A stretch of 30,951 bases of DNA from a virus, in the IMG/VR virus record IMGVR_UViG_3300034190_002900, positions 1 to 30,951 of that record. One strand, 5' to 3'. This document shows positions 1-24,841 of the stretch, piece after piece. The notes under the pieces were generated by a model. It was not told the origin of the DNA. It did no database searches and saw only the letters and a program-made list of their open reading frames with translations. Both the position numbers and the translations under genes were made by a program. Position 1 is the first letter of the stretch; every line of letters begins with the position of its first letter.

Positions 1-867
1 CGAGTCTGGACGGATAACCAAGGTACCGCCGACTTCCAGTAGGACTCCTTCGAGTGACTTCCAGATCTCAAGAGCTTCCCAAATGTTATAGGAATCGGAT
101 ACACAAGCAGCAATCTTACCTGCTCCCAAGTTGTTACGGATGAACGCTTCATACATTTCCTTTTCACTTTCACGACCCCAGCTTGTAACAGTTGAGTGCT
201 CAGTTGCTGGTATACTAAATCCTGCCATGGGTTCTCCGTAGTTATCTGCGACATATTCAATAGCCTCCAGTGTATCTGTACCCATGAAATTAATAAGATG
301 ACCTGCGCCACCCTTAGCAGCCGCTTCACCGCAAGTAGCCCCACGTGCACCAAAGTCATGTAATTTGAAATCAATAGTACTTAAGTCAGCACCAGTTTTC
401 AGCATGTATTCTTTAATACGAGTCTTACAGTATCGTGATGTACTAGCAACAGTAGAAGGATACCATACACAACGTAAGAACAGTGTCTCGAAGAATGATG
501 TTAACCAAGGGAACTCAGGATCGGTGTTGCAAATACATGCTACAGGGGTCTTAGGTTCGACTACAGTGCCTTCTGGTACACCCATAATTACTAGAGGCCA
601 GTGTTTACCTTGGTACTTAGCAACTAATGCTTTCCAGCCACTCTCGTTGAAAGGAACACCATGACGCTCAGCAACATCCTGAAGTAAACTAATAGACAGT
701 AAATCAGGAGAGCCTCCTAGCTGGTCAATGAAATCATTGATACCTATGATTACCACGGGGTGTAATCCTTTACGGGGTTCGATGTAACTATAGACATGTT
801 CGGTTCCTTCAGGATATTGATTGAAGTGGGAAACCTTGTAACTGTCTGCTTTCATTAATAAATTCAT
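1..867 (-). CDS. nadV: Nicotinamide phosphoribosyltransferase (NAMPT/NadV), 3' end cut by window
   Basis: Translating the minus strand from the ATG at 867 gives 289 residues with no stop before the window edge. The protein carries hallmarks of the NAMPT family: MKADSYKVSHFNQYP near the N-terminus, KLHDFGARG, HLINFMGTDT, the signature IPATEHSTVTSWG, and a closing IRPDS. NAMPT joins nicotinamide and PRPP to give NMN in the cytoplasm. About 200 further residues of the usual length lie outside the window. The ATG overlaps the stop of the upstream gene (TAATG), and AAGGAGAAC lies just before it, so translational coupling is likely. It is the last visible gene of an operon that also encodes an NMN adenylyltransferase. 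Together the two enzymes make the two-step nicotinamide-to-NAD+ route known in phages such as KVP40. Identity is certain; the biological role is inference. Confidence 0.96.
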   Translation of the reverse strand, partial: MNLLMKADSYKVSHFNQYPEGTEHVYSYIEPRKGLHPVVIIGINDFIDQLGGSPDLLSISLLQDVAERHGVPFNESGWKALVAKYQGKHWPLVIMGVPEGTVVEPKTPVACICNTDPEFPWLTSFFETLFLRCVWYPSTVASTSRYCKTRIKEYMLKTGADLSTIDFKLHDFGARGATCGEAAAKGGAGHLINFMGTDTLEAIEYVADNYGEPMAGFSIPATEHSTVTSWGRESEKEMYEAFIRNNLGAGKIAACVSDSYNIWEALEIWKSLEGVLLEVGGTLVIRPDS

Positions 868-1232
868 TATTTGTTCTCCTTTAGTTCCTTAAGCATCTCT
901 TCTGCTTTTCTAATCAATGCTTCGGTATCTTGTGAATACTCCAGACTTACGTACGATGTTTGTGTTTGTATAGTATACGTGACTAATTCCTTGACTTCCG
1001 CGATTCCGTTGATGTTATAATACCAATCAGTGAAGTAAGAGCCTGTACGGCTACCTTCAATACTAAAAAATCTTCCATCAATCTTAACTACTATGTTACC
1101 ATTCTGATACTTACCATCATCATCCCAATCAACATCGACTACTACTTCATGATCAAGGCCTAAGGAATCCACAGCACACTCAGGTGAATCCTCATTACCT
1201 ACTAAAGTGTTTAACTTTTCTAATAAATTCAT
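867..1232 (-). CDS. Hypothetical protein inside the NAD operon (121 aa)
   Basis: I do not recognise the family. The chosen ATG at 1232 overlaps the stop of the RNA-ligase gene as TAATG and has AGGAG seven bases upstream; a longer start at 1250 would overlap the ligase by 19 bases without need. The 121-residue protein is acidic (a run of VDVDWDDDG near residue 34). A middle part rich in aromatic and beta-prone residues (FFSIEGSRTGSYFTDWYYN) is followed by a charged C-terminal helix (EALIRKAEEMLKELKENK). It has no signal peptide or membrane segment. Its stop overlaps the NAMPT start, so it is co-translated with NAD-salvage enzymes. A small partner or regulator is possible but unproven. Confidence 0.85.
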   Translation of the reverse strand: MNLLEKLNTLVGNEDSPECAVDSLGLDHEVVVDVDWDDDGKYQNGNIVVKIDGRFFSIEGSRTGSYFTDWYYNINGIAEVKELVTYTIQTQTSYVSLEYSQDTEALIRKAEEMLKELKENK

Positions 1233-1798
1233 TACTTTACTCCTGTCCATTTACCTTTACTATATTCGAATGTGTGTTTCTCCATAGCGTCTAACTTAGG
1301 AAAATACACAACGATACCTTCAGCTTTCCAGCCCTCAGTATCCGAGCGAGTCTTGAGTTCATTCATCACTTCATCAACCCTAGCTCTCGTGTATTCACCA
1401 TGATGTAATACTTCGACAACGCTGATACCTTCAGGAGGTGGGTTATGCTCGCCCCAGCGTCTTGTGTTGAACAGGAAGAACTGTTTATTTGGCAGGTTGT
1501 GAGGGTTCTTCTGAATCCCTAGTCCAGCCCATTCACCGTAGTGACGTCCTTCACCTAACGCAAGGAACTTATCCTCATTTAAACTAACGTAAGTAGCGAA
1601 ACCATAGTTATCGTTTTCTTTACCTACGTTAATCAGACGTTTACGGCTCTGTACACCTACGATAGCGCCTTCCTTAATGATAACGCACGCATTCGTACCG
1701 TCCATCTTAAGACTCATCACACAGTCACCTAAGACTGCTCGTGGAATCTTAGGCCAAGCTTCGAACTCAACCTGTGTATCAATTGGTTTAGGATCCAT
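1232..1798 (-). CDS. ATP-dependent RNA ligase, Rnl2-like minimal nucleotidyltransferase
   Basis: The 188-aa protein contains the ordered motifs of covalent nucleotidyltransferase ligases. Motif I is KMDGTNA with the adenylylated lysine at residue 31. An SRKR stretch lies at about 51, motif III is HYGEWAG at 86-92, FFLFNTRRW at about 107 fits motif IIIa, and motif IV is AEGIVVY at 159-165. A lysine-containing tail may supply motif V. It is little more than the catalytic domain, much shorter than T4 Rnl2 (334 aa), so substrate specificity cannot be read from it. The family seals 3'-OH/5'-phosphate RNA breaks. No polynucleotide kinase partner is visible. It sits between the NMNAT-Nudix gene and an unknown gene, with TAATG junctions on both sides. 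With the phage tRNAs in this window, tRNA repair is plausible but inferred. Confidence 0.88.
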   Translation of the reverse strand: MDPKPIDTQVEFEAWPKIPRAVLGDCVMSLKMDGTNACVIIKEGAIVGVQSRKRLINVGKENDNYGFATYVSLNEDKFLALGEGRHYGEWAGLGIQKNPHNLPNKQFFLFNTRRWGEHNPPPEGISVVEVLHHGEYTRARVDEVMNELKTRSDTEGWKAEGIVVYFPKLDAMEKHTFEYSKGKWTGVK

Positions 1799-2784
1799 TA
1801 CTTTACTCCTGCTAATAAACGACGTAAGATTGTCGTATGATTATAAAATAGAGAGAACTCATCGTTCATGATTTCTTCCAGAGAAACCCATTGAACTTCC
1901 TGTGCGTCATCTCCTGCTTTAATATCTAGTACTTCGTCCTTGTGTACTGCGTAGAGGTAATTAATACCTAGGGTTCTTGTTGATAGCCCCTTCATATTCT
2001 CTTCAATACACTGGTTCAATTCCGTAGCCCGTTCAAGAGATAATAAATCTACATTAGTTTCCTCAGCTAACTCACGTAAAGCACCTGCTCGTGTTGTTTC
2101 ATCGTGATTAAGGAAACCTCCGGGAAGTGCCCATTGACCATGTCCTCGAACACCACCACGCTTCACAAGTAATACTTTGTTATCTTGTATAACAGCAGCA
2201 TGTACTACAGGTTCTATTGGATTAGAGAACTTATGATTAGATAACGCTTCTGCTTTAGATTGCTTACACAGGAAGTATTCATTTAACATACGTTTCCATT
2301 CATCTGTGCCTATATAATTCTCCATTAGAACACGTGTAACCTCAGGAACTAAGACCCAAGGTTTACCTAGGTAAATAGCGGTTCTCAAATCAGTAGCAGA
2401 GATTCCCTCGGAACTCTTCGATACAACACTATACAGGAAGTTAGTTCTGTAGAATGTTTCATCTTTCTCACTTGTGTATAAGGTAACATTAGTTGGATCA
2501 TCTTCCATAGTCATAACACGAGCAGTAACATCCTCGATCCACTGGGAATCACTGGGATAGTCCTTGATACCTTTAACACATAGATTACCTAAGTCTTCCT
2601 CGAAGTGATCTTCTATTAATTTAATACGTGTTTCTACTGGGAAAGGGTTTTTGTAATCTGGAAGTTTACCCGCCGACCCTACTAAAACAAGTACTTTATC
2701 ATTTTCTTCTAATGCTTTCTCTAGAAGACTTGTGTGTCCGTAATGCAACGGTTGGAATCTTCCTATTACTAAACCTAATTTCAT
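1798..2784 (-). CDS. nadM: Bifunctional NMN adenylyltransferase / Nudix hydrolase (NadM-Nudix)
   Basis: The protein has 328 aa and two domains. Residues 1 to about 180 form a nucleotidylyltransferase domain with GRFQPLHYGH (HxGH at 14-17) near the start and ISATDLR at about 128-134, the pair expected of NMN adenylyltransferases. Residues from about 190 carry a Nudix domain: PGGFLNHDE followed by RELAEET matches the G-x5-E-x7-RE-U-xEE Nudix box, although the usual Gly near its end is Asn. The first domain makes NAD+ from NMN and ATP. The second probably hydrolyses ADP-ribose-like substrates, as in Synechocystis and KVP40 relatives. The start has AAGGAGAAACAA upstream. Its stop overlaps the RNA-ligase start. 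With NAMPT further along the operon the phage encodes nicotinamide-to-NAD+ synthesis. Confidence 0.95.
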   Translation of the reverse strand: MKLGLVIGRFQPLHYGHTSLLEKALEENDKVLVLVGSAGKLPDYKNPFPVETRIKLIEDHFEEDLGNLCVKGIKDYPSDSQWIEDVTARVMTMEDDPTNVTLYTSEKDETFYRTNFLYSVVSKSSEGISATDLRTAIYLGKPWVLVPEVTRVLMENYIGTDEWKRMLNEYFLCKQSKAEALSNHKFSNPIEPVVHAAVIQDNKVLLVKRGGVRGHGQWALPGGFLNHDETTRAGALRELAEETNVDLLSLERATELNQCIEENMKGLSTRTLGINYLYAVHKDEVLDIKAGDDAQEVQWVSLEEIMNDEFSLFYNHTTILRRLLAGVK

Positions 2785-2794
2785 TTGTTTCTCC

Positions 2795-3184
2795 TTAAAA
2801 TGATGTAAATAATGGATGTCCTAGACCTGTTCTCTTGGGTCGCTGTGCTTGGATTGCTTTAGGTAACACAATACCGTGTGAATCTAGGGATACATCATGA
2901 TACTTATCAATCTCTTCTCGGGTAAGATATTGTTTATTCAATAAGATTACTTCAGAAGGTAGTACTTTACCTCCTCTCTTAGTTCCTCTAGAGGCTAAGG
3001 TGCTCTTATCATATTCCCTGTCACCTTGTCCGTTCACTTGATGTAGACGAATCATGCTTTTCGTACGTCCCACAATAATACCATGAGTAAATACTGTGTG
3101 TCGATAAGTACCTCCCGGTCTCGCACCTAAAACTAAGTCGCCTATGTTTAACTCTTGATCATAATGATCCTGTAATTTATCCAT
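2795..3184 (-). CDS. Hypothetical protein, possible small beta-barrel (129 aa)
   Basis: Unrecognised. The start at 3184 has a clear CAGGAGGATAACTA leader. The first 70 residues read like a small beta-barrel: LNIGDLVLGARPGG, HGIIVGRTKSMIRLHQV and KVLPSEVILL alternate in the way of KOW/SH3-like folds. A C-terminal part rich in basic residues (QRPKRTGLG) follows. It is the first gene downstream of the terminator at 3203-3239 and lies 10 bases before the NMNAT gene, so it belongs to the NAD operon transcript. A nucleic-acid or protein binding role would fit the fold impression, but this is a guess. Confidence 0.8.
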   Translation of the reverse strand: MDKLQDHYDQELNIGDLVLGARPGGTYRHTVFTHGIIVGRTKSMIRLHQVNGQGDREYDKSTLASRGTKRGGKVLPSEVILLNKQYLTREEIDKYHDVSLDSHGIVLPKAIQAQRPKRTGLGHPLFTSF

Positions 3185-3253: not shown

Positions 3254-3682
3254 CTAGTAGTCTTCACCATCAGCGCCGCCAAATTCATTAGCGTCTGTAA
3301 ATTCCATGTTATTAGGAGCGTTTAACTCCAACACTTGAACAGCTACTAGATCCTGTCCGGTGCCTGACTTACCGCCCGGCGCTGTCCAATCACGAAACTT
3401 ATACTGTACGTTGATTGTTGAACCCCGACCAATCTCAGAACCTTCTAAATCTAGATCCTTGTTAGCCACAGCACCCACTACACGCGGTTTAAACTTAGTC
3501 TTAAACGTTGCTTGAAATTGAGAAGCTCCGTTGTATTCCTTAGTCTTAACAGTTAAACCTGCTTCCTCAGCGTCTGCTGCTTGTTCTTCAGTAAGTTTAG
3601 CTACGATTTGGTACTTATCACTGAAATCGTCCACTGATAATACGTTTGAAAATAATACTTCTACTTTTGATAATACGGCCAT
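3254..3682 (-). CDS. Single-stranded DNA-binding protein-like (142 aa)
   Basis: The 142-aa protein begins MAVLSKVEVLFSNVLS and has an alternating beta-rich body (FQATFKTKFKPRVVGAV, STINVQYKFRDW). It ends in an acidic tail with glycine and a terminal aromatic residue (EFGGADGEDY). This layout, an OB-like core plus an acidic C-terminus ending in an aromatic residue, is that of phage single-stranded DNA-binding proteins such as T7 gp2.5. No exact motif proves it, so the call rests on architecture. It has a strong leader (AGAGGTAAATCAA) and its own downstream terminator, fitting an abundantly made protein. Role expected: coating ssDNA during replication and recombination. Confidence 0.6.
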   Translation of the reverse strand: MAVLSKVEVLFSNVLSVDDFSDKYQIVAKLTEEQAADAEEAGLTVKTKEYNGASQFQATFKTKFKPRVVGAVANKDLDLEGSEIGRGSTINVQYKFRDWTAPGGKSGTGQDLVAVQVLELNAPNNMEFTDANEFGGADGEDY

Positions 3683-3765: not shown

Positions 3766-3987
3766 CTATTTAAAGATAGGCTCTTGTTTTGTAAGCAGAG
3801 AAAGTATCTCTAGTTTATCCTTGGACACTAACTCTTTAAAGTATGGAGAATCAATAGTATCGAATTCGTCTATAACAATAAGTTGTAAGTGTCTAAGTTC
3901 TTCCTTGGTTAACTCCAAGTTTACTCTGGTATCCTTTTGATTGACCCAGAGTAGATTTAATGCTTGGTTTGAGGTGAAATGCTCCAT
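3766..3987 (-). CDS. Hypothetical protein (73 aa)
   Basis: Unrecognised. The ATG at 3987 has TAAAGGAGACTAACTA upstream and overlaps the stop of the preceding HNH fragment (TAATG), supporting real translation. The 73 residues are mainly helical and charged, with no membrane segment or cysteine motif. Between its stop and the next gene (3683-3765) is a weak hairpin, GGTTG/CAACC at about 3739-3756, without a convincing T-run. Confidence 0.7.
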   Translation of the reverse strand: MEHFTSNQALNLLWVNQKDTRVNLELTKEELRHLQLIVIDEFDTIDSPYFKELVSKDKLEILSLLTKQEPIFK

Positions 3988-6271: not shown

Positions 6272-7312
6272 CTACACGCCTGCTGATAAATCTTGAATGA
6301 TATCCCACTCGTTACTATCCTTAATAGTTACATAACGTTCAATCTCACCGTCATATCCACGTCGAGCGAATATTAAGTTATCATTCTTCTCATCGTAAGA
6401 CTGGAAGTAGAAATCACCTCGATACAGTTTAGATGTAGATGTACGTTCTAGTGTGTAAGGAACATCACGATTAACTGGGAATTCCTCGTGGTTACCCTTG
6501 AACGTTAGGTATCCTAGATTACTCTGCCAGATATTAGAGTCATCATAGTTATCTGCTTGAGGTACGTATGTTTTCTTGCCTACGACTACCTGAGCATTCA
6601 CTAGACTACTATCACCACGTGCTACTTCTTCAAGGATTTCATAACTACAAGCACGTCCTTTCATGTTTTTGTAATCTGATGGAATCGCTACGACATCCTT
6701 AGGGTTAATCTTAAGAATAACCATACGACCTCCAGAACCAAAGCCCTTAGCATACTCGTGAGCAGCAAAGTGCAACCCGTAGCTACAGGTGCGGTCTTTG
6801 TCCTCATCTACAAGGTTACGTTGCATGGAAACCGTAGTGCCTACTGAGTTATCCATCTTACCTGTGTGATGATCAGTGAAGTCTTGTCTAACGCTTTTAT
6901 ACGCTAAGAAATGACCGTCATCAGTAATAGGTAACTGAGAGACTTCCATGAAACCATAGAGTTCCTCAACTGCACGGCTACTAGGGTTCTGAAGTAAATT
7001 CTCAAGGAATAATTCTAATGGACGACAATCATGTCCCATCTTGATCATTTCTAAGATACGTCTACCTAAGATACCTCGGACTACGTTACCTTGGTAATAC
7101 AATTCATTACCTAGTAACTCAAGTTTACTACCTGTTACAGCAATAGATACTGCCTCCTTCAAGCTGATTAACTTACTAGCTGCGCTAAATTTACCTACTC
7201 CTACTGCTTTTTCAATGGCAGTATACTGAGGGTGACTAGCATTAGCTGTTAACCATTTACCTTCGTGAAAGAAACCCACTGATACATTTGGTATAATTAA
7301 TGTTGCTGACAT
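6272..7312 (-). CDS. rIIB: RIIB-like protein (346 aa)
   Basis: The 346-aa product begins MSATLIIPNVSVGFF and contains the family's middle block: GFMEVSQLPITDDGHFLAYKS, here read at about residues 120-140, followed by HTGKMDNSVG and SYGLHFAAHEYAKGF. These are typical of phage RIIB relatives and of a domain related to T4 rIIB. The ATG at 7312 is chosen because AAAGGAGAACATAAT precedes it; an upstream ATG at 7342 would overlap rIIA without a leader. In T4, RIIA and RIIB act together at the membrane or replication complex and overcome Rex exclusion; the molecular activity is unknown. The gene directly follows rIIA, the classic order. Confidence 0.85.
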   Translation of the reverse strand: MSATLIIPNVSVGFFHEGKWLTANASHPQYTAIEKAVGVGKFSAASKLISLKEAVSIAVTGSKLELLGNELYYQGNVVRGILGRRILEMIKMGHDCRPLELFLENLLQNPSSRAVEELYGFMEVSQLPITDDGHFLAYKSVRQDFTDHHTGKMDNSVGTTVSMQRNLVDEDKDRTCSYGLHFAAHEYAKGFGSGGRMVILKINPKDVVAIPSDYKNMKGRACSYEILEEVARGDSSLVNAQVVVGKKTYVPQADNYDDSNIWQSNLGYLTFKGNHEEFPVNRDVPYTLERTSTSKLYRGDFYFQSYDEKNDNLIFARRGYDGEIERYVTIKDSNEWDIIQDLSAGV

Positions 7313-7325
7313 ATTATGTTCTCCT

Positions 7326-9335
7326 TTAGGTCTTTTGACCATTGTGTTTTAAAAAGTTGTGTAATTGTTCGAAGTTAGACTTATGATTCCATCCGGAACC
7401 TAGGGCACTCACAAGCCCTGCGTATTTCTCCTTATAAGAATCTAATAGTTTCTGTGCTCTCGTAGAAATAAACGCAGAGGACTTAGGAATATTGCTTAAT
7501 AATGTTACTGCGTCATTATAGTTACACACAGAGACCCTACGGGTAACTCGTCTTTCATAGTAACCTATAAGTAAGTATAAGATAGCATCTACTTCTTTCC
7601 ACTCTTGGGTTTTCAGATTGTTCATATCTCGTAGTGAGAACTTATCTTTAATATCAATGGCCTTCTGGTGAGCTATCACACGAGGAGTAAGTAAGGTATT
7701 TAAATGTTTCTGTAGATCTTCCTCGCTCTTAAGATTCACATCCTTCCTTGTGTTCTTACGTACTAAGTAAACAGGCGCATCTATCTCATCTACAAACTGT
7801 CCTAGTTCCTGAAGTTTTCCTTTGAAGATACCTTCGACGTCCCAACCATACATGGGAAGCATATAACCTTTCGTAGGTATATCAGCAACAGAAATTACCA
7901 TGTTTCGTGTGGTACCTGCTGACTTCGTAATCTTAAAGATCTGATCAGGTTTAGCACGGGCGCTTGCTGATGTTTTCACTGGGAATCCTATGATAGACGA
8001 AAGTAACTTAGGTTCCTTCCCAAAGAAATCCTTGGTCCTTTTGATTTCCGCATCTAGTAAAGACTGTCGTGTTTTCTTAGTACCCTTAAGAGGCTCAATG
8101 ATATAGCAATCACTTGTTATTTTGCTATACTCATTGTTGATATGAGTACTCGCGCCTACTCCTAGATCATTAATGTATAACGTAAGTCCGTTAACAACAT
8201 GTACCATTGATATAACAGTAGAACGGTAAACATTCGTGTATCTATTTTGTATATGTTTAACAGTTAAACCATGTTCCGTTCCGCTTAAGTGGCTTCGAGA
8301 AAGGTGATGCCGTGTATATTCAACACCCTTGAACTTGATAGCCCCTTTATTCACCATATGGCCATTAGAATTATAAACCTTTTTGCGTAACTCTAGATAA
8401 TCAGTAATTTTAGATACTTCATCATCGAACTTCTGTTGGTAATCTTTCTTAATTCTTGCCAGTACTGCGTTAAGGTACGTTTTAGTTTTCGCTGTGTATT
8501 CTAAAGTCTCCCTTGATGGCGGGATATCAACAGAACCAATAGGTACTTTAATAGTCAATGATTCATGGAATACTCCTGAAGGTGCTAGTACTTCACTTTC
8601 ATTCAAATCATAAGCCACGTTACCCATGACAACATAATGAGTACGGCTCCACGAGTAAACCCCTCGTTGTTTACTATAGAAGTAATCCTTAGTTTCCCAC
8701 CCATCAGGAAGTTCATCCCACTCAGCAACTCCTTCACCGCCAGTAATAATAGGTTTCGTAGGAAAGTACTTAAGTTGCTTCGTTAATTGTCGAGTGAACT
8801 CATCAACTTCATCTTCCTCAAATACAAATGATACTTTAACTCCTGAAGGTTCATCACTTGCTTCCTTGTTAAGCATGGTTACCTGAGGATTGCCTGCATT
8901 CTTAAAACATAACCAAGTAGATTTCTCTCCATCTCTCCAGTTTTCCACGGTGAAACTATCGACCATAGAGAAACTCACCTTGCTTCCGAGTCCAAACATA
9001 CCTGTTAAATCATTGGTAGCGTCTTTAGTTGATTCACCTATGGTTGTATATATTAATTCAAACTTATCATGTGGAATACCTATACCATAATCACGAATCA
9101 TGAAGGTTTTATCTAACCACGTAGGTAGATGTATTTCAAAGGGAACCTCAGGGTTCCCTTTCTCAACATGAGCATCGAAGGCGTTACAGGCCAGTTCTCG
9201 TATAACAGCTCCCGGTTTGTTGGTGTACATCTTATTGATAAGTATATCTATTATCTTAGCGTTAGCCTTGAGTTGAAAGCTGTTACTTACAATCCCATTA
9301 AGAACGGCCGAAGGTTCGTTTGAGTTTACTATCAT
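7326..9335 (-). CDS. rIIA: RIIA-like protein with GHKL ATPase domain (669 aa)
   Basis: The N-terminal 200 residues show a GHKL (Hsp90/gyrase/MutL) ATP-binding fold. The N-box is RELACNAFDAH, the Asp-Gly loop is IRDYGIGIP, and the lid has GMFGLGSKVSF. This is the known architecture of phage RIIA proteins. The remaining 450 residues have no motif I can name. The start at 9335 (MIVNSNEPS) has AAAGGATAACACTA upstream and is preferred to an ATG at 9365, which lies deep inside the preceding HNH gene. Even so, the last 38 bases of the HNH gene overlap the first codons of rIIA. The protein acts with RIIB, encoded next. Its likely job is countering host exclusion or reorganising the infected cell, from T4 precedent. 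Confidence 0.88.
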   Translation of the reverse strand: MIVNSNEPSAVLNGIVSNSFQLKANAKIIDILINKMYTNKPGAVIRELACNAFDAHVEKGNPEVPFEIHLPTWLDKTFMIRDYGIGIPHDKFELIYTTIGESTKDATNDLTGMFGLGSKVSFSMVDSFTVENWRDGEKSTWLCFKNAGNPQVTMLNKEASDEPSGVKVSFVFEEDEVDEFTRQLTKQLKYFPTKPIITGGEGVAEWDELPDGWETKDYFYSKQRGVYSWSRTHYVVMGNVAYDLNESEVLAPSGVFHESLTIKVPIGSVDIPPSRETLEYTAKTKTYLNAVLARIKKDYQQKFDDEVSKITDYLELRKKVYNSNGHMVNKGAIKFKGVEYTRHHLSRSHLSGTEHGLTVKHIQNRYTNVYRSTVISMVHVVNGLTLYINDLGVGASTHINNEYSKITSDCYIIEPLKGTKKTRQSLLDAEIKRTKDFFGKEPKLLSSIIGFPVKTSASARAKPDQIFKITKSAGTTRNMVISVADIPTKGYMLPMYGWDVEGIFKGKLQELGQFVDEIDAPVYLVRKNTRKDVNLKSEEDLQKHLNTLLTPRVIAHQKAIDIKDKFSLRDMNNLKTQEWKEVDAILYLLIGYYERRVTRRVSVCNYNDAVTLLSNIPKSSAFISTRAQKLLDSYKEKYAGLVSALGSGWNHKSNFEQLHNFLKHNGQKT

Positions 9336-9837
9336 TAGTGTTATCCTTTTGTTTGTCTTGCTCAACCATCCAAAGATATAACTTATAAACTTCTTCGGTT
9401 GTTGCGTCGAGTTTCATGGTATTTGCTCTATGACTTATCACAGTTACATTACCTTTAACATAGCCCAACGAAGGATTATACTTATCCAAAGTTGGACTGC
9501 TTGGGCATACGTGATAGCTGCCTCGCTTTAACAAAGTCCCTAATATAGGACAGTGGGTAGGCATGGGAATGTCCTCGGGTGTTATATCGAAGGGTATATT
9601 ATTACGTGATGCTCTACGTTTAGCGTCGTATAACATGAACCTTACAGGTTCTTTTACATTAGAATTATTCCTAGAAGCAGCTCTCTTTCTCTTCTGTTCT
9701 TTTGATAAACCCTCACGTCTCCGTTTGTTAACACATGTTTTACAATCACTCCTGAGTTGCTCAGGGTAACCTTTCTGATATGTCTTATCAAAGTCGCTTA
9801 AAGGTTTCTCTTGTTTACATTTAGTGCATGTTTTCAT
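9298..9837 (-). CDS. HNH homing endonuclease with N-terminal zinc finger (179 aa)
   Basis: Residues 4-37 hold two CxxC pairs (CTKC and CKTC) of a small zinc finger. The core follows with IPFDITPEDIPMPTHCPILG and SPTLDKYNPSLGYVKGNV, the pattern of free-standing phage HNH nucleases. These proteins make site-specific nicks or breaks to spread their own gene. The gene carries its own near-consensus promoter at 9866-9895, and its 3' end intrudes 38 bases into rIIA, both signs of a mobile insertion into the rII locus. The N-terminal leader is only moderate (AGGAGTTCCTGA). Confidence 0.88.
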   Translation of the reverse strand: MKTCTKCKQEKPLSDFDKTYQKGYPEQLRSDCKTCVNKRRREGLSKEQKRKRAASRNNSNVKEPVRFMLYDAKRRASRNNIPFDITPEDIPMPTHCPILGTLLKRGSYHVCPSSPTLDKYNPSLGYVKGNVTVISHRANTMKLDATTEEVYKLYLWMVEQDKQKDNTNDSKLKRTFGRS

Positions 9838-10583: not shown

Positions 10584-11092
10584 AATTTACTCATCCTTAC
10601 TTTAAGTATTTGTGCCATGTGATTATACCAGTCAACAGTACTCCAATCACTTTTCATTTGATTACATTTCGAGCAACAAGGCTCAACGTTATCTTCTTGA
10701 TAAGGTAAACTTGAGTCAACTCTATCTAAACCAATGGTATCAATAGGAGCATCACAGTGTGTACAAGGTTTCTGCCAGTGTTTCATGAACTGATCTCGTG
10801 TTAATTTCCACTGGAACCCTCGGCTCTCCGCGCTTGCTTTGTACTTCTTGTAACGTACCTCAGGTTTACTTCTGTACTTCTTATCGCTTTCCCTGCGATT
10901 ACTAGCGTGTTCTTTATTATACTCTCGTTGACATTCCTTACATCGGTTACGTTTGCCATCAGGCTTACTTTTATCATTAGTGAAATGACTTCTAAGTTTA
11001 ACCTTCCCACAGCCGTGTTTACCTGTGCATAACTTATGGGTTTCCTTGGTTCCTGTGGAATCTTTAGGTAACTCTTTATACTTTAGAGACAT
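10568..11092 (-). CDS. HNH endonuclease with zinc-binding N-terminus (174 aa)
   Basis: The start at 11092 (MSLKYKELPKD) has the leader GGAGGAGAACTA and overlaps the stop of the macro-domain gene as TAATG. Residues of about 20-58 contain cysteine pairs (CTGKHGCGK and RCKEC) of a zinc ribbon. The C-terminal HNH core has CTHCDAPI, GLDRVDSS, DNVEPCCSKCNQMKSD. This resembles phage endonucleases annotated as HNH or endonuclease-VII-like. Unlike the gene at 9298-9837 it has no promoter of its own and is fully embedded in the operon by overlaps at both ends. Confidence 0.85.
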   Translation of the reverse strand: MSLKYKELPKDSTGTKETHKLCTGKHGCGKVKLRSHFTNDKSKPDGKRNRCKECQREYNKEHASNRRESDKKYRSKPEVRYKKYKASAESRGFQWKLTRDQFMKHWQKPCTHCDAPIDTIGLDRVDSSLPYQEDNVEPCCSKCNQMKSDWSTVDWYNHMAQILKVRMSKLCGNS

Positions 11093-11607
11093 TAGTTCTC
11101 CTCCCATACCAATACTGTCCATTTAACATCAGGAGCATACTTAAGTAAAGCGTTCTCCACTAGTAACCAATCGCCTCCTCCAATACCACATCCGATTCTA
11201 GGGATACCTATAGATAAACCCTTGAACTCCTCATTCACACTCATAAGTATATTAATGAAAGCATCTAAGTAGAAGTTAGCTCCACCGGTGAACTGAGTAT
11301 ACGCATTGATCACGGTGAAAGGTGAATCGACATATCTGAATGAGTATTCTTCCGAAGCAGACTTTAGATCATTCCATGCAATCTTATGTCTTTCTTCAGT
11401 AATCTTATGCTTACTATAAGTACCTAACACAGACCACTGGAACTCTTCGTGGTTCCCAAGCTTCTCTATGTAAGCTTTAGGAAATCGATCCCAGATAAGG
11501 GCTGCGATACCACTATCGTATCCATGACCGCAGTTACATCCGTGCATAATGGCATCAAAGGATTCAGCTTCTTTAATAAGGTCTCCTGTTCTAATCGTTA
11601 GCATCAT
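11092..11607 (-). CDS. Macro-domain protein, ADP-ribose-binding / Appr-1''-p phosphatase-like (171 aa)
   Basis: The protein opens with IRTGDLIKEAESFDAIMHGCN, in which GDL and the HGCN stretch correspond to the first ADP-ribose-contacting loop. GYDSGIAALIWDRFPKAY follows. The C-terminal half has LSIGIPRIGCGIGGGDW, the glycine-rich phosphate loop of macro domains. Family members bind ADP-ribose and many hydrolyse ADP-ribose-1''-phosphate (a product of tRNA splicing-type 2'-phosphate removal) or remove ADP-ribose from macromolecules. Two adjacent ATG codons mark the start, after ATGGAGAAAT. It overlaps the upstream gene by 17 bases. With the NAD genes and an RNA ligase in the same genome, an NAD/ADP-ribose or RNA-end-repair role is attractive but inferred. 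Confidence 0.85.
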   Translation of the reverse strand: MMLTIRTGDLIKEAESFDAIMHGCNCGHGYDSGIAALIWDRFPKAYIEKLGNHEEFQWSVLGTYSKHKITEERHKIAWNDLKSASEEYSFRYVDSPFTVINAYTQFTGGANFYLDAFINILMSVNEEFKGLSIGIPRIGCGIGGGDWLLVENALLKYAPDVKWTVLVWEEN

Positions 11608-15672: not shown

Positions 15673-15815
15673 GGTTCCCGAGGGAGGAATCTAACCTCCT
15701 TATCTCATAGGTTGGTAAGCAGTACAGGACTTGAACCTGTGACCTCCGCAGTATAATCGTGACGCTCTAACCGACTGAGCTAACCGCTTGAGTGAGTGCT
15801 TTAAGCTACTCGGGC
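15673..15815 (-). pseudogene. Degenerate tRNA split by the tRNA-Ile gene
   Basis: On the minus strand GCCCGAG (15815-15809) is followed by TAGCTTAAAGC, like a tRNA 5' end with a shrunken D-arm. After the complete tRNA-Ile comes ATAAGGAGGTTAGATTCC, containing a T-arm with a perfect 5-bp stem and loop TTAGATT. It is followed at the exact place by CTCGGGA, which pairs 6/7 with the 5' strand, then ACC. CTCA/TGAG pair around the inserted tRNA where an anticodon stem would be. The loop lacks the usual TTC, so if real it is decayed. Confidence 0.45.
15713..15789 (-). tRNA. tRNA-Ile (anticodon TAT)
   Basis: A complete 77-base cloverleaf including encoded CCA. The acceptor AAGCGGT/ACTGCTT is fully paired with one wobble. 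The D-arm GCTC/GAGC has a GG-containing loop. The anticodon loop is ATTATAC, anticodon TAT. The anticodon stem TCACG/TGCGG has one A-C mismatch and two wobbles, so the anticodon call is less firm than the gene. The T-arm ACAGG-TTCAAGT-CCTGT and discriminator A complete it. It would read AUA, a codon rare in many gammaproteobacteria but natural in an AT-rich phage. Confidence 0.88.
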
Positions 15816-17462: not shown

Positions 17463-17642
17463 CTAAGTATACTTAAGTTCCCTTTCCTCTGTTCTACTTC
17501 TTCTATTACTTAAAGGAGAAACCTTATAAACTTTAGAGAAACCAAAGTTCTTAGGATTACTCCAGATATCCTTAGCACATCTTGCTGTTATATTAAGTGT
17601 TTCGTTGTAACCTTCTTCTGTTTTACCTTGTACTGTAAACAT
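17463..17642 (-). CDS. Hypothetical small protein (59 aa)
   Basis: The ATG at 17642 overlaps the stop of the hexapeptide-repeat gene as TAATG, with AAGGAAGAC just upstream. The 59-residue product starts MFTVQGKTEEGYNETLN and ends with a basic stretch SNRRSRTEERELKYT. It has a likely beta-hairpin at the start and a basic tail. No family recognised. The coupled start supports it as real despite its size. Confidence 0.65.
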   Translation of the reverse strand: MFTVQGKTEEGYNETLNITARCAKDIWSNPKNFGFSKVYKVSPLSNRRSRTEERELKYT

Positions 17643-18409
17643 TAGTCTTCCTTATTGATTCTATAGATGTGATGAAACAAAGGGAGCAGGTAAGCTCTAT
17701 GTTCTTTCCATTCTGATAAAGTAGTTGTTGTTTCCCATTGTTCTAATGTTTTCCGTTGACAGCCTATCTGTATGAAACTATCGTAGATCGTTACGGTATA
17801 AGGAATGTGTCCTTGTAAGGTTACACAGAAAGTAGCATTACCAGAGACCTTAGCATTACCATAGACCTTAGCATTACCATAGACCCAAGCATTACCATAG
17901 ACCCAAGCACTACCAAAGACCTTAGTATCACCAAAGACCTTAGCATTACCATAGACCCCAGCATCACCATAGACCCAAGCATCACCAGAGACCTCAGCAT
18001 TACCAGAGACCCAAGCATTAACATAGACCTTAGCATTACCAAAGACCTTAGTATCACCAAAGACCTTAGCATTACCAGAGACCTTAGCATTACCATAGAC
18101 CTTAGCATTACCATAGACCCAAGCATTACCAAAGACCTTAGCATTACCAGAGACCTCAGCATTACCAAAGACCTCAGCATCGCCAAAGACCTTAGCATCA
18201 CCATAGACCTTAGCATCACCATAGACCTTAGCATTACCAGAGACCCAAGCATTACCAGAGACCCAAGCATTACCTTTTAAATTATGTTCACCCTCGATAT
18301 ACCCACCGAGTTCGCCTTTCTTTATTTCACCAAAGCCTTTAGCACACTCAATTCGATGCAACGTTTTACCTTGGAATTCAATCGTATCGCTAGTTAATTT
18401 GTAATACAT
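17642..18409 (-). CDS. Hexapeptide-repeat (beta-helix-like) protein (255 aa)
   Basis: Residues 1-45 form a short N-terminal module (YKLTSDTIEFQGKTLHRIE, KGELGGYIEGEHNLKG) seen in other phage and plasmid repeat proteins. Residues 46-189 are 24 perfect-length six-residue units of the form G-[ND]-A-x-V-[YFS], then a partial unit, and a 60-residue C-terminal cap. Hexapeptide units of this kind coil into a left-handed beta-helix with one strand per repeat, which would give about eight turns. No catalytic residues typical of acyltransferases are evident. The function is unknown; an adaptor, a stable scaffold or a DNA-shaped mimic are possibilities. The leader AGGTGACCT is weak but present. Confidence 0.85.
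   Translation of the reverse strand: MYYKLTSDTIEFQGKTLHRIECAKGFGEIKKGELGGYIEGEHNLKGNAWVSGNAWVSGNAKVYGDAKVYGDAKVFGDAEVFGNAEVSGNAKVFGNAWVYGNAKVYGNAKVSGNAKVFGDTKVFGNAKVYVNAWVSGNAEVSGDAWVYGDAGVYGNAKVFGDTKVFGSAWVYGNAWVYGNAKVYGNAKVSGNATFCVTLQGHIPYTVTIYDSFIQIGCQRKTLEQWETTTTLSEWKEHRAYLLPLFHHIYRINKED
17828..18274 (-). repeat. 18-bp tandem coding repeat (about 24 units)
   Basis: Each repeat encodes one hexapeptide of the 17642-18409 protein. Units are near-identical (variants of GGTAATGCTAAGGTCTAT) and no longer unit is obvious. Copy number could change by slippage or recombination without breaking the frame. It is not a CRISPR: there are no spacers. Confidence 0.9.
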
Positions 18410-24325: not shown

Positions 24326-24600
24326 CGGTTATTTGCGAAGCAGTAACTGACCGTAGGCGTAGGCTTAAACAGAAAGCCATTGAATACAAAGGCGGTTGTT
24401 GTGAAGTCTGTGGTTATAAGAAATTCGCAGGTGCTTTAGAGTTCCACCATAAAGATCCTAATGAGAAAGATTTCAGTGTCTCTAATAAAGGCCACTGCCG
24501 TTCTTGGGAATCAATTAAAAGAGAACTAGATAAATGTGCATTGCTATGCGCTAATTGTCACCGAGAAATACATGGGAACGTAACTCAGTTGGTAGAGTGA
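24322..24600 (+). CDS. HNH endonuclease, TTG start, runs into tRNA-Asn (92 aa)
   Basis: The frame opens with TTG overlapping the terL stop (TTGA). The product has CCEVCGYKKFAGALEFHHKDP and LLCANCHREIHG, a compact HNH nuclease with paired CxxC zinc ligands and the HH and N-x-x-H active-site pattern. Its last nine codons and stop lie inside the first 27 bases of the tRNA-Asn gene. The start is uncertain: no good Shine-Dalgarno is visible, and coupling to terL termination is the best explanation. Likely a mobile homing nuclease next to tRNA and terminase genes. Confidence 0.65.
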   Translation: MTVICEAVTDRRRRLKQKAIEYKGGCCEVCGYKKFAGALEFHHKDPNEKDFSVSNKGHCRSWESIKRELDKCALLCANCHREIHGNVTQLVE

Positions 24601-24649
24601 GACGCTGTTAACGTTTAAGTCGGAGGTTCGAATCCTCCCGTTCCCGCCA
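24574..24649 (+). tRNA. tRNA-Asn (anticodon GTT)
   Basis: 76 bases with encoded CCA. Acceptor GGGAACG/CGTTCCC, D-arm ACTC/GAGT, anticodon loop CTGTTAA, T-arm GGAGG-TTCGAAT-CCTCC, discriminator G. All stems pair well. Confidence 0.95.
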
Positions 24650-24764: not shown

Positions 24765-24841
24765 GGGAACGTAGCTCAGTTGGTTAGAGCATGCGGCTTT
24801 TAACCGTCAGGTCTCAGGTTCGAATCCTGATGTTCCCACCA
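24765..24841 (+). tRNA. tRNA-Lys (anticodon TTT)
   Basis: 77 bases with encoded CCA. Acceptor GGGAACG/TGTTCCC, D-arm GCTC/GAGC, anticodon loop CTTTTAA, T-arm TCAGG-TTCGAAT-CCTGA. Only one base separates it from tRNA-Gly, so they are cut from one transcript. tRNA-Lys(UUU) is a known target of anticodon nucleases such as PrrC. Confidence 0.95.

Follow-up and report, generated by a model that had tools for sequence, protein, structure and literature searches.

The window analysed here is an entire IMG/VR fragment of 30,951 bases, cut at base 1 at the end that bears NAMPT, the last gene of a four-gene block (Table 1). In minus-strand order, NMNAT-Nudix is followed by an RNA ligase, a 121-aa ORF and NAMPT. 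TAATG overlaps, read directly in the sequence, join these genes at all three junctions of the block, as the original prediction had described. That prediction further took the coupling as a sign of joint function. The overlaps are not peculiar to the block, however, because another lies at position 3987, outside it, and because most genes of the window, the four included, are preceded by an AGGAG-like ribosome site of their own. With overlapping starts found elsewhere in the same genome, the coupling is weak evidence for that interpretation.

Table 1. Features at the NMNAT/NAMPT locus of the window
Feature	Position	Strand	Size or basis
NAMPT (NadV-type nicotinamide phosphoribosyltransferase)	1..867	-	first 289 aa, cut by contig end
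Direct repeat D2, NAMPT gene start	856..872	-	pairs with 1221-1237
121-aa ORF, phrog_2294-like, lineage-specific insert	867..1232	-	PHROGs match
Direct repeat D2, 121-aa gene start	1221..1237	-	16/17 identical to 856-872
Direct repeat D1, ligase gene end / 121-aa gene start	1227..1245	-	pairs with 1793-1811
Minimal predicted RNA ligase, Rnl2-type nucleotidyltransferase domain only	1232..1798	-	188 aa; PF09414, phrog_548
Direct repeat D1, ligase gene start (ribosome site and start)	1793..1811	-	18/19 identical to 1227-1245
NMNAT-Nudix	1798..2784	-	328 aa; ORF list and Pfam
129-aa ORF, conserved neighbour upstream of NMNAT within clade	2795..3184	-	37-58% identity
Gp2.5-like single-strand DNA binding protein (SSB), conserved upstream neighbour	3254..3682	-	phrog_112, 5e-9

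Scans with the ligase, NMNAT and primase-helicase gathered six further members of a clade of seven phages: the window, L003/L004 (near identical), L029, L030 (= L186), L031, L185 and L187. Upstream of NMNAT on the same strand lie the 129-aa ORF, whose identity in Table 1 refers to the copies in L029, L030 and L185, the Gp2.5-like SSB, which holds the same position in L003, L029, L030, L185 and L187, and additional genes. In the relatives, NAMPT is followed by primase-helicase and DNA polymerase genes. The phage is related to the HMO-2011/CHOED-type podophages, and the block belongs to its early/replication region. PADLOC returned a single match within the four genes, NMNAT as a candidate-system Nudix (PDC-S07), and none for the ligase, the 121-aa ORF or NAMPT of the window.

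Several other features of these genomes were noted. The minus strand of the window also encodes rIIA and rIIB homologues (6272-9365) with a 17-base overlap and a YdcK-like beta-solenoid protein (17642-18409) with tandem repeats such as GNAKVYGNAWVSG. Genes for tRNA-Ile(TAT), tRNA-Asn(GTT) and tRNA-Lys(TTT) lie at 15713-15789, 24574-24649 and 24765-24841. In L031, the primase-helicase (L031:3133-5790) is 885 aa long, against about 560 in relatives, and carries an intein-like insertion after GTGSGK, the ATP-binding loop.

Both enzymes that turn nicotinamide into NAD+ are encoded, as originally proposed, with Pfam, PHROGs and NCBIfam in agreement, for NAMPT over its first 289 residues only. The NMNAT-Nudix protein matches the Pfam families CTP_transf_like (9e-13) and NUDIX (5e-17), and the profile built from its alignment (A1) matches PDB entries 2QJO (1.6e-100) and 2QJT (2e-86) over nearly its whole length, with HxGH, ISAT and a near-complete Nudix box visible. 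It reaches 1e-45 against the NCBIfam family PRK05379; because this score falls under the curated cut-off, we regard the protein as a divergent phage version of a predicted bifunctional NMN adenylyltransferase/Nudix hydrolase. Its translation, read by eye, contains no SQPWPFPxS, which we take to be the signature of NudC-like NAD-RNA decapping Nudix enzymes. The alignment query collected 365 relatives, and a single-sequence scan with the window protein none. In every listed locus where both genes were found, NMNAT precedes NAMPT on the same strand, at distances ranging from an overlap to 4.6 kb.

The window NAMPT matches NAMPT_N (6e-16) and NAPRTase (9e-15) in Pfam and PRK09198 in NCBIfam (2e-93). 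Its alignment (A3) displays the EHST catalytic-His motif, and its profile matches human and Xanthomonas NAMPT. Over the shared 289 aa, it is 90% identical to the full-length protein of L029; L003, L030 and L031 likewise carry full-length NAMPT. The NAMPT homologue Namat of the NARP1 system (Adps plus Namat) is marked by the motif GSxxxxxxTRD (PMC12774641). This motif is absent from the full-length clade NAMPTs, its region being cut off in the window protein. Because full-length proteins such as that of L029 instead read GMGGGLLQKVDRD, aligned to the Xanthomonas NAMPT motif, the predicted route is that of NAMPT plus NMNAT rather than Namat. With a NAMPT-family enzyme and an NMN adenylyltransferase both encoded, the two genes fit NARP2-type NAD+ salvage in phages, NARP2 being a name that we take to denote the enzyme pair NAMPT plus NMNAT. 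We therefore treat the NAD module as real and ordinary in kind. Consistent with the original prediction that phages use such systems to refill NAD+ against NADase defences, this role is described for NARP1 and NARP2 (PMC11984713; also PMC9503650), and NARP2 is reported as counter-defence (PMC11984713, PMC12028318). According to PMC9503650, NadV accompanies NadM in all phages that have the latter and is rare in small phages, at about 2%; small-genome podophages now join those with a complete NAMPT/NMNAT pair.

The second gene of the block encodes a predicted Rnl2-type RNA ligase, scoring 39 bits (1e-9) against a curated cut-off of 27 for RNA_ligase. Its structure model (pLDDT 92.5) comprises the nucleotidyltransferase domain with no C-terminal domain and lies nearest to the Naegleria RNA ligase and T4 Rnl2 (Z 11.1-11.5); family members are mostly 170-200 aa long. 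The residues of KxxG and the later motifs that are invariant in the family, namely the catalytic K31, G34, E89, E160 and K174, are all present. Position 30, beside the catalytic lysine, is Glu in all 45 aligned relatives and Leu in the window (E30L), so this copy may or may not be active. Altogether it departs at four positions from columns conserved at 90% or more, and a few other members also show four. The sister ligases of the window, L003/L004 and L031 are 69-73% identical, about as diverged as the phage backbone; dN is near 0.2, and dS is near 1.6 or at saturation. On these grounds the ligase appears to be an old, constrained gene, yet a dispensable one. We also considered whether the minimal ligase stands in for a missing DNA ligase and set this aside: of the 35 non-clade records with the ligase, 33 lack a PF01068 match, but nothing follows from this, because the same profile missed the clade's own 248-aa DNA ligase.

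The 121-aa protein had been described as unknown. It has no Pfam match, in keeping with that description, but it is not a complete orphan, as residues 20-96 match phrog_2294 (5e-15), a small family found in T7-like vibriophages. In one of these, ICP3, its relative sits among replication genes. The PHROGs label of the family, 'ribonucleotide reductase', is implausible for a protein of about 115 aa with no match to a Pfam RNR domain. Among the 16 records searched, the 121-aa family occurs in the window only and is absent from the other 15, five of them from the same clade; a single-sequence scan found no relatives, and the structure model (pLDDT 41) is uninformative. Direct repeats flank both inserted genes, the D1 copies being spaced by 566, almost exactly the length of the ligase gene, and the D2 copies by 365, almost exactly that of the 121-aa gene. 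Because ribosome sites are alike, common stretches of up to 17 nt also recur at other gene starts of the genome, and the L031 and L003 junctions lack such repeats; for these reasons, the repeats do no more than suggest a cassette-like insertion.

What lies between NMNAT and NAMPT varies across the clade. The ligase occupies this junction in three of the seven phages (the window, L003/L004 and L031) and is missing from it in L029, L030, L185 and L187; the contigs of L030 (62.8 kb) and L187 (63.1 kb) contain no relative of it elsewhere either. NMNAT directly overlaps NAMPT in L029 and L187, leaving the junction empty, and the L030 junction is nearly so, with a gap of about 130 bases. L185 carries an unrelated 87-aa ORF, L031 the ligase only, and L003/L004 the ligase with a small ORF unlike the 121-aa ORF that accompanies it in the window; the small third gene differs in each clade phage that has one. 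By NAMPT identity, each carrier adjoins a non-carrier (window and L029, 90%; L031 and L030, 86%; L003 and L187, 76%), and ligase presence has therefore changed at least three times. The neighbourhood of ligase and NAD genes is thus not confined to the window phage, since two further lineages hold the ligase at the same junction, but the 121-aa ORF keeps this company in the window only. The absence of the ligase from four of seven sister phages argues against the proposal that both genes are locked in for one function, as does the replacement of the 121-aa ORF by unrelated ORFs or by nothing.

NMNAT/NAMPT junctions elsewhere hold other cargo, including Macro plus NADAR, PurA-like, 2OG-Fe(II) oxygenase, HNH-like and Cys-rich ORFs. 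The last of these, a zinc-ribbon-like ORF of 60-109 aa (CTGWGNG...CPCCG), is the most frequent insert, present at 14 loci, some of them duplicates (L037, L039, L041, L052-L055, L059, L061, L069, L075, L076, L088 and L095). The two members scanned match no PHROG, and their Pfam zinc-binding match is sub-threshold. This ORF, rather than the ligase, may be the better candidate for an accessory of the NAD operon. The Macro and NADAR domain genes between NMNAT and NAMPT at L064:11257-12262 are consistent with ADP-ribose handling beside NAD salvage. The window has a Macro-like protein of its own at 11092-11607 on the minus strand (phrog_335, 3e-31; partial DarG match in PADLOC, 1e-6; no Pfam match), possibly a second ADP-ribose gene of this phage.

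A wider sample of 47 longer records with more distant NMNATs, not fully independent of one another, likewise speaks against a shared function. Some RNA ligase (PF09414, PF09511 or RtcB over cut-off) is present in 31 of them, and in none does it lie between NMNAT and NAMPT. Relative to random placement along the contig, an RNA ligase falls within 5 kb of NMNAT in 9 records (5.7 expected, p 0.095) and within 2 kb in 2 (2.9 expected), so RNA ligases in these phages are not nearer to NMNAT than chance would place them. From the side of the ligase family, NAMPT was found in one of 35 records outside the clade, some of which may be fragments; the exception is a 120 kb record resembling Rhizobium phage V1VFA-S. 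Among the 24 nearest ligase loci, a set that includes near duplicates, 14 have a gene for primase-helicase, DNA polymerase or exonuclease no more than 2 kb away. The isolated phages CHOED and MQM1, whose coat protein and primase-helicase are related to those of the clade, have the gene for a longer RNA ligase immediately upstream of that for primase-helicase, and their genomes lack NAMPT. Given these counts and gene orders, the ligase family belongs more with replication genes than with NAD genes. Neighbouring RNA ligase and NAD genes do occur in the large phages V1VFA-S, where an RtcB-type RNA ligase is followed by one small ORF, NadM and NAMPT (L025:14802-18999), and DSS3P8. A literature search found no paper combining NAMPT, NMNAT, phage, RNA ligase and NAD.

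Together, these findings make it probable that the block is a NAD salvage operon of the NARP2 kind whose NMNAT/NAMPT junction acts as a cargo slot, occupied in this phage by an RNA ligase typical of replication regions and by an ORF specific to the lineage. NAMPT would convert nicotinamide and PRPP to NMN, and the adenylyltransferase half of NMNAT-Nudix would form NAD+ from NMN and ATP, while the probable substrate hydrolysed by the Nudix half is ADP-ribose or NAD+. The likely gain is that NAD+ is kept up under depletion by host NADase defences. From the gene order, families, predicted fold and presence or absence among relatives, we infer that the ligase is independent of this pathway: genes would come and go at the junction, and the stand-alone ligase most likely closes nicks or breaks in RNA by itself, with ATP, being co-expressed with the NAD genes because of its location there. 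Since sister phages do without them, the ligase and the 121-aa ORF appear to occupy the slot as optional passengers and not to form part of the NAD pathway. Some observations pull the other way. The ligase is found at one junction in three diverged lineages and is apparently constrained, and is therefore not random passing cargo; the gene neighbours in V1VFA-S and DSS3P8 and the 5 kb count lean toward proximity; and RyDEP, an insert in a NARP1 operon that feeds the pathway (PMC13232231), is a precedent against a pure cargo view.

These same observations bear on a joint counter-defence operon, in which NAD+ is replenished by NAMPT and NMNAT and the ligase repairs RNA such as tRNA after cleavage by RNases of the same defence response, the genes acting in parallel rather than in one pathway and being selected for expression together. 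The constrained ligase at the shared junction fits such an operon, as do RtcB or other RNA ligases near NadM-NAMPT in some unrelated phages, the RNA ligases of the 31 NMNAT phages and the three tRNAs of the window; both RNA repair and NAD+ supply feature as counter-defence in PMC9503650, and RyDEP illustrates that inserts in phage NAD operons can matter. However, four sister phages manage without the ligase, its family usually occurs without NAMPT, proximity elsewhere is no better than chance, and no end-healing kinase, phosphatase, 2H or KptA was found among the scanned window proteins. We consider this operon unlikely, if worth keeping in mind. That the slot is itself devoted to counter-defence cargo, the minimal ligase and the NAD+ pair forming a two-pronged defence breaker through RNA repair and NAD+ restoration, strikes us as quite unlikely.

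Decay of the ligase would be compatible with the cargo-slot reading: the unique E30L would have crippled the window copy, now kept as a passenger. Leu30 and the total of four departures from conserved columns point in this direction, but the frame is open over its full length, the other invariant motif residues are kept, pN/pS against the sister ligases is low and a few family members depart as often, leaving decay very unlikely. The original prediction's idea of NAD-linked RNA ends could mean that NAD-capped RNA is made, removed or joined by the ligase and the Nudix domain together with the NAD pathway, or that the ligase takes AMP from NAD+ instead of ATP; we find this highly improbable. Nothing beyond gene adjacency speaks for it, and the profile and fold of the ligase match ATP-dependent Rnl2-type RNA ligases. 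NAD-dependent DNA ligases carry an extra NMN-binding domain, for which a protein of 188 aa is too short. The Nudix half, in turn, matches NMNAT/ADP-ribose pyrophosphatase enzymes such as 2QJO and 2QJT and has no NudC signature by eye, and members of the ligase family live without NAD genes.

The link between ligase and NAD, originally drawn from adjacency and overlap, is therefore weak, and stop/start overlaps in phages should be read with caution, as weak evidence of shared function. Sister phages with filled and empty junctions form a natural set in which a pathway benefit of NAD-operon inserts becomes directly testable.

Compared with known systems, the clade departs from NARP1 in that relatives of the window lack the Namat motif and carry NMNAT instead. 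Like RyDEP in a phage NARP1 operon, the window ligase is an extra gene inside a phage NAD operon; RyDEP feeds its pathway, whereas the ligase has no evident biochemical tie of such kind. With T4 RNA ligase 2 and the Naegleria RNA ligase, both of PF09414, it shares the nucleotidyltransferase fold and the active-site lysine, differing from both in the Leu for Glu before that lysine and from T4 Rnl2 in its small size and in lacking the C-terminal domain. The two-domain layout of NMNAT-Nudix is that of the bifunctional NMNAT/Nudix enzymes 2QJO and 2QJT. Finally, although the window differs from NARP2 in its two extra junction genes, its truncated NAMPT and an activity that is predicted, it has both NARP2 enzymes on one strand in the usual order, NMNAT and then NAMPT.
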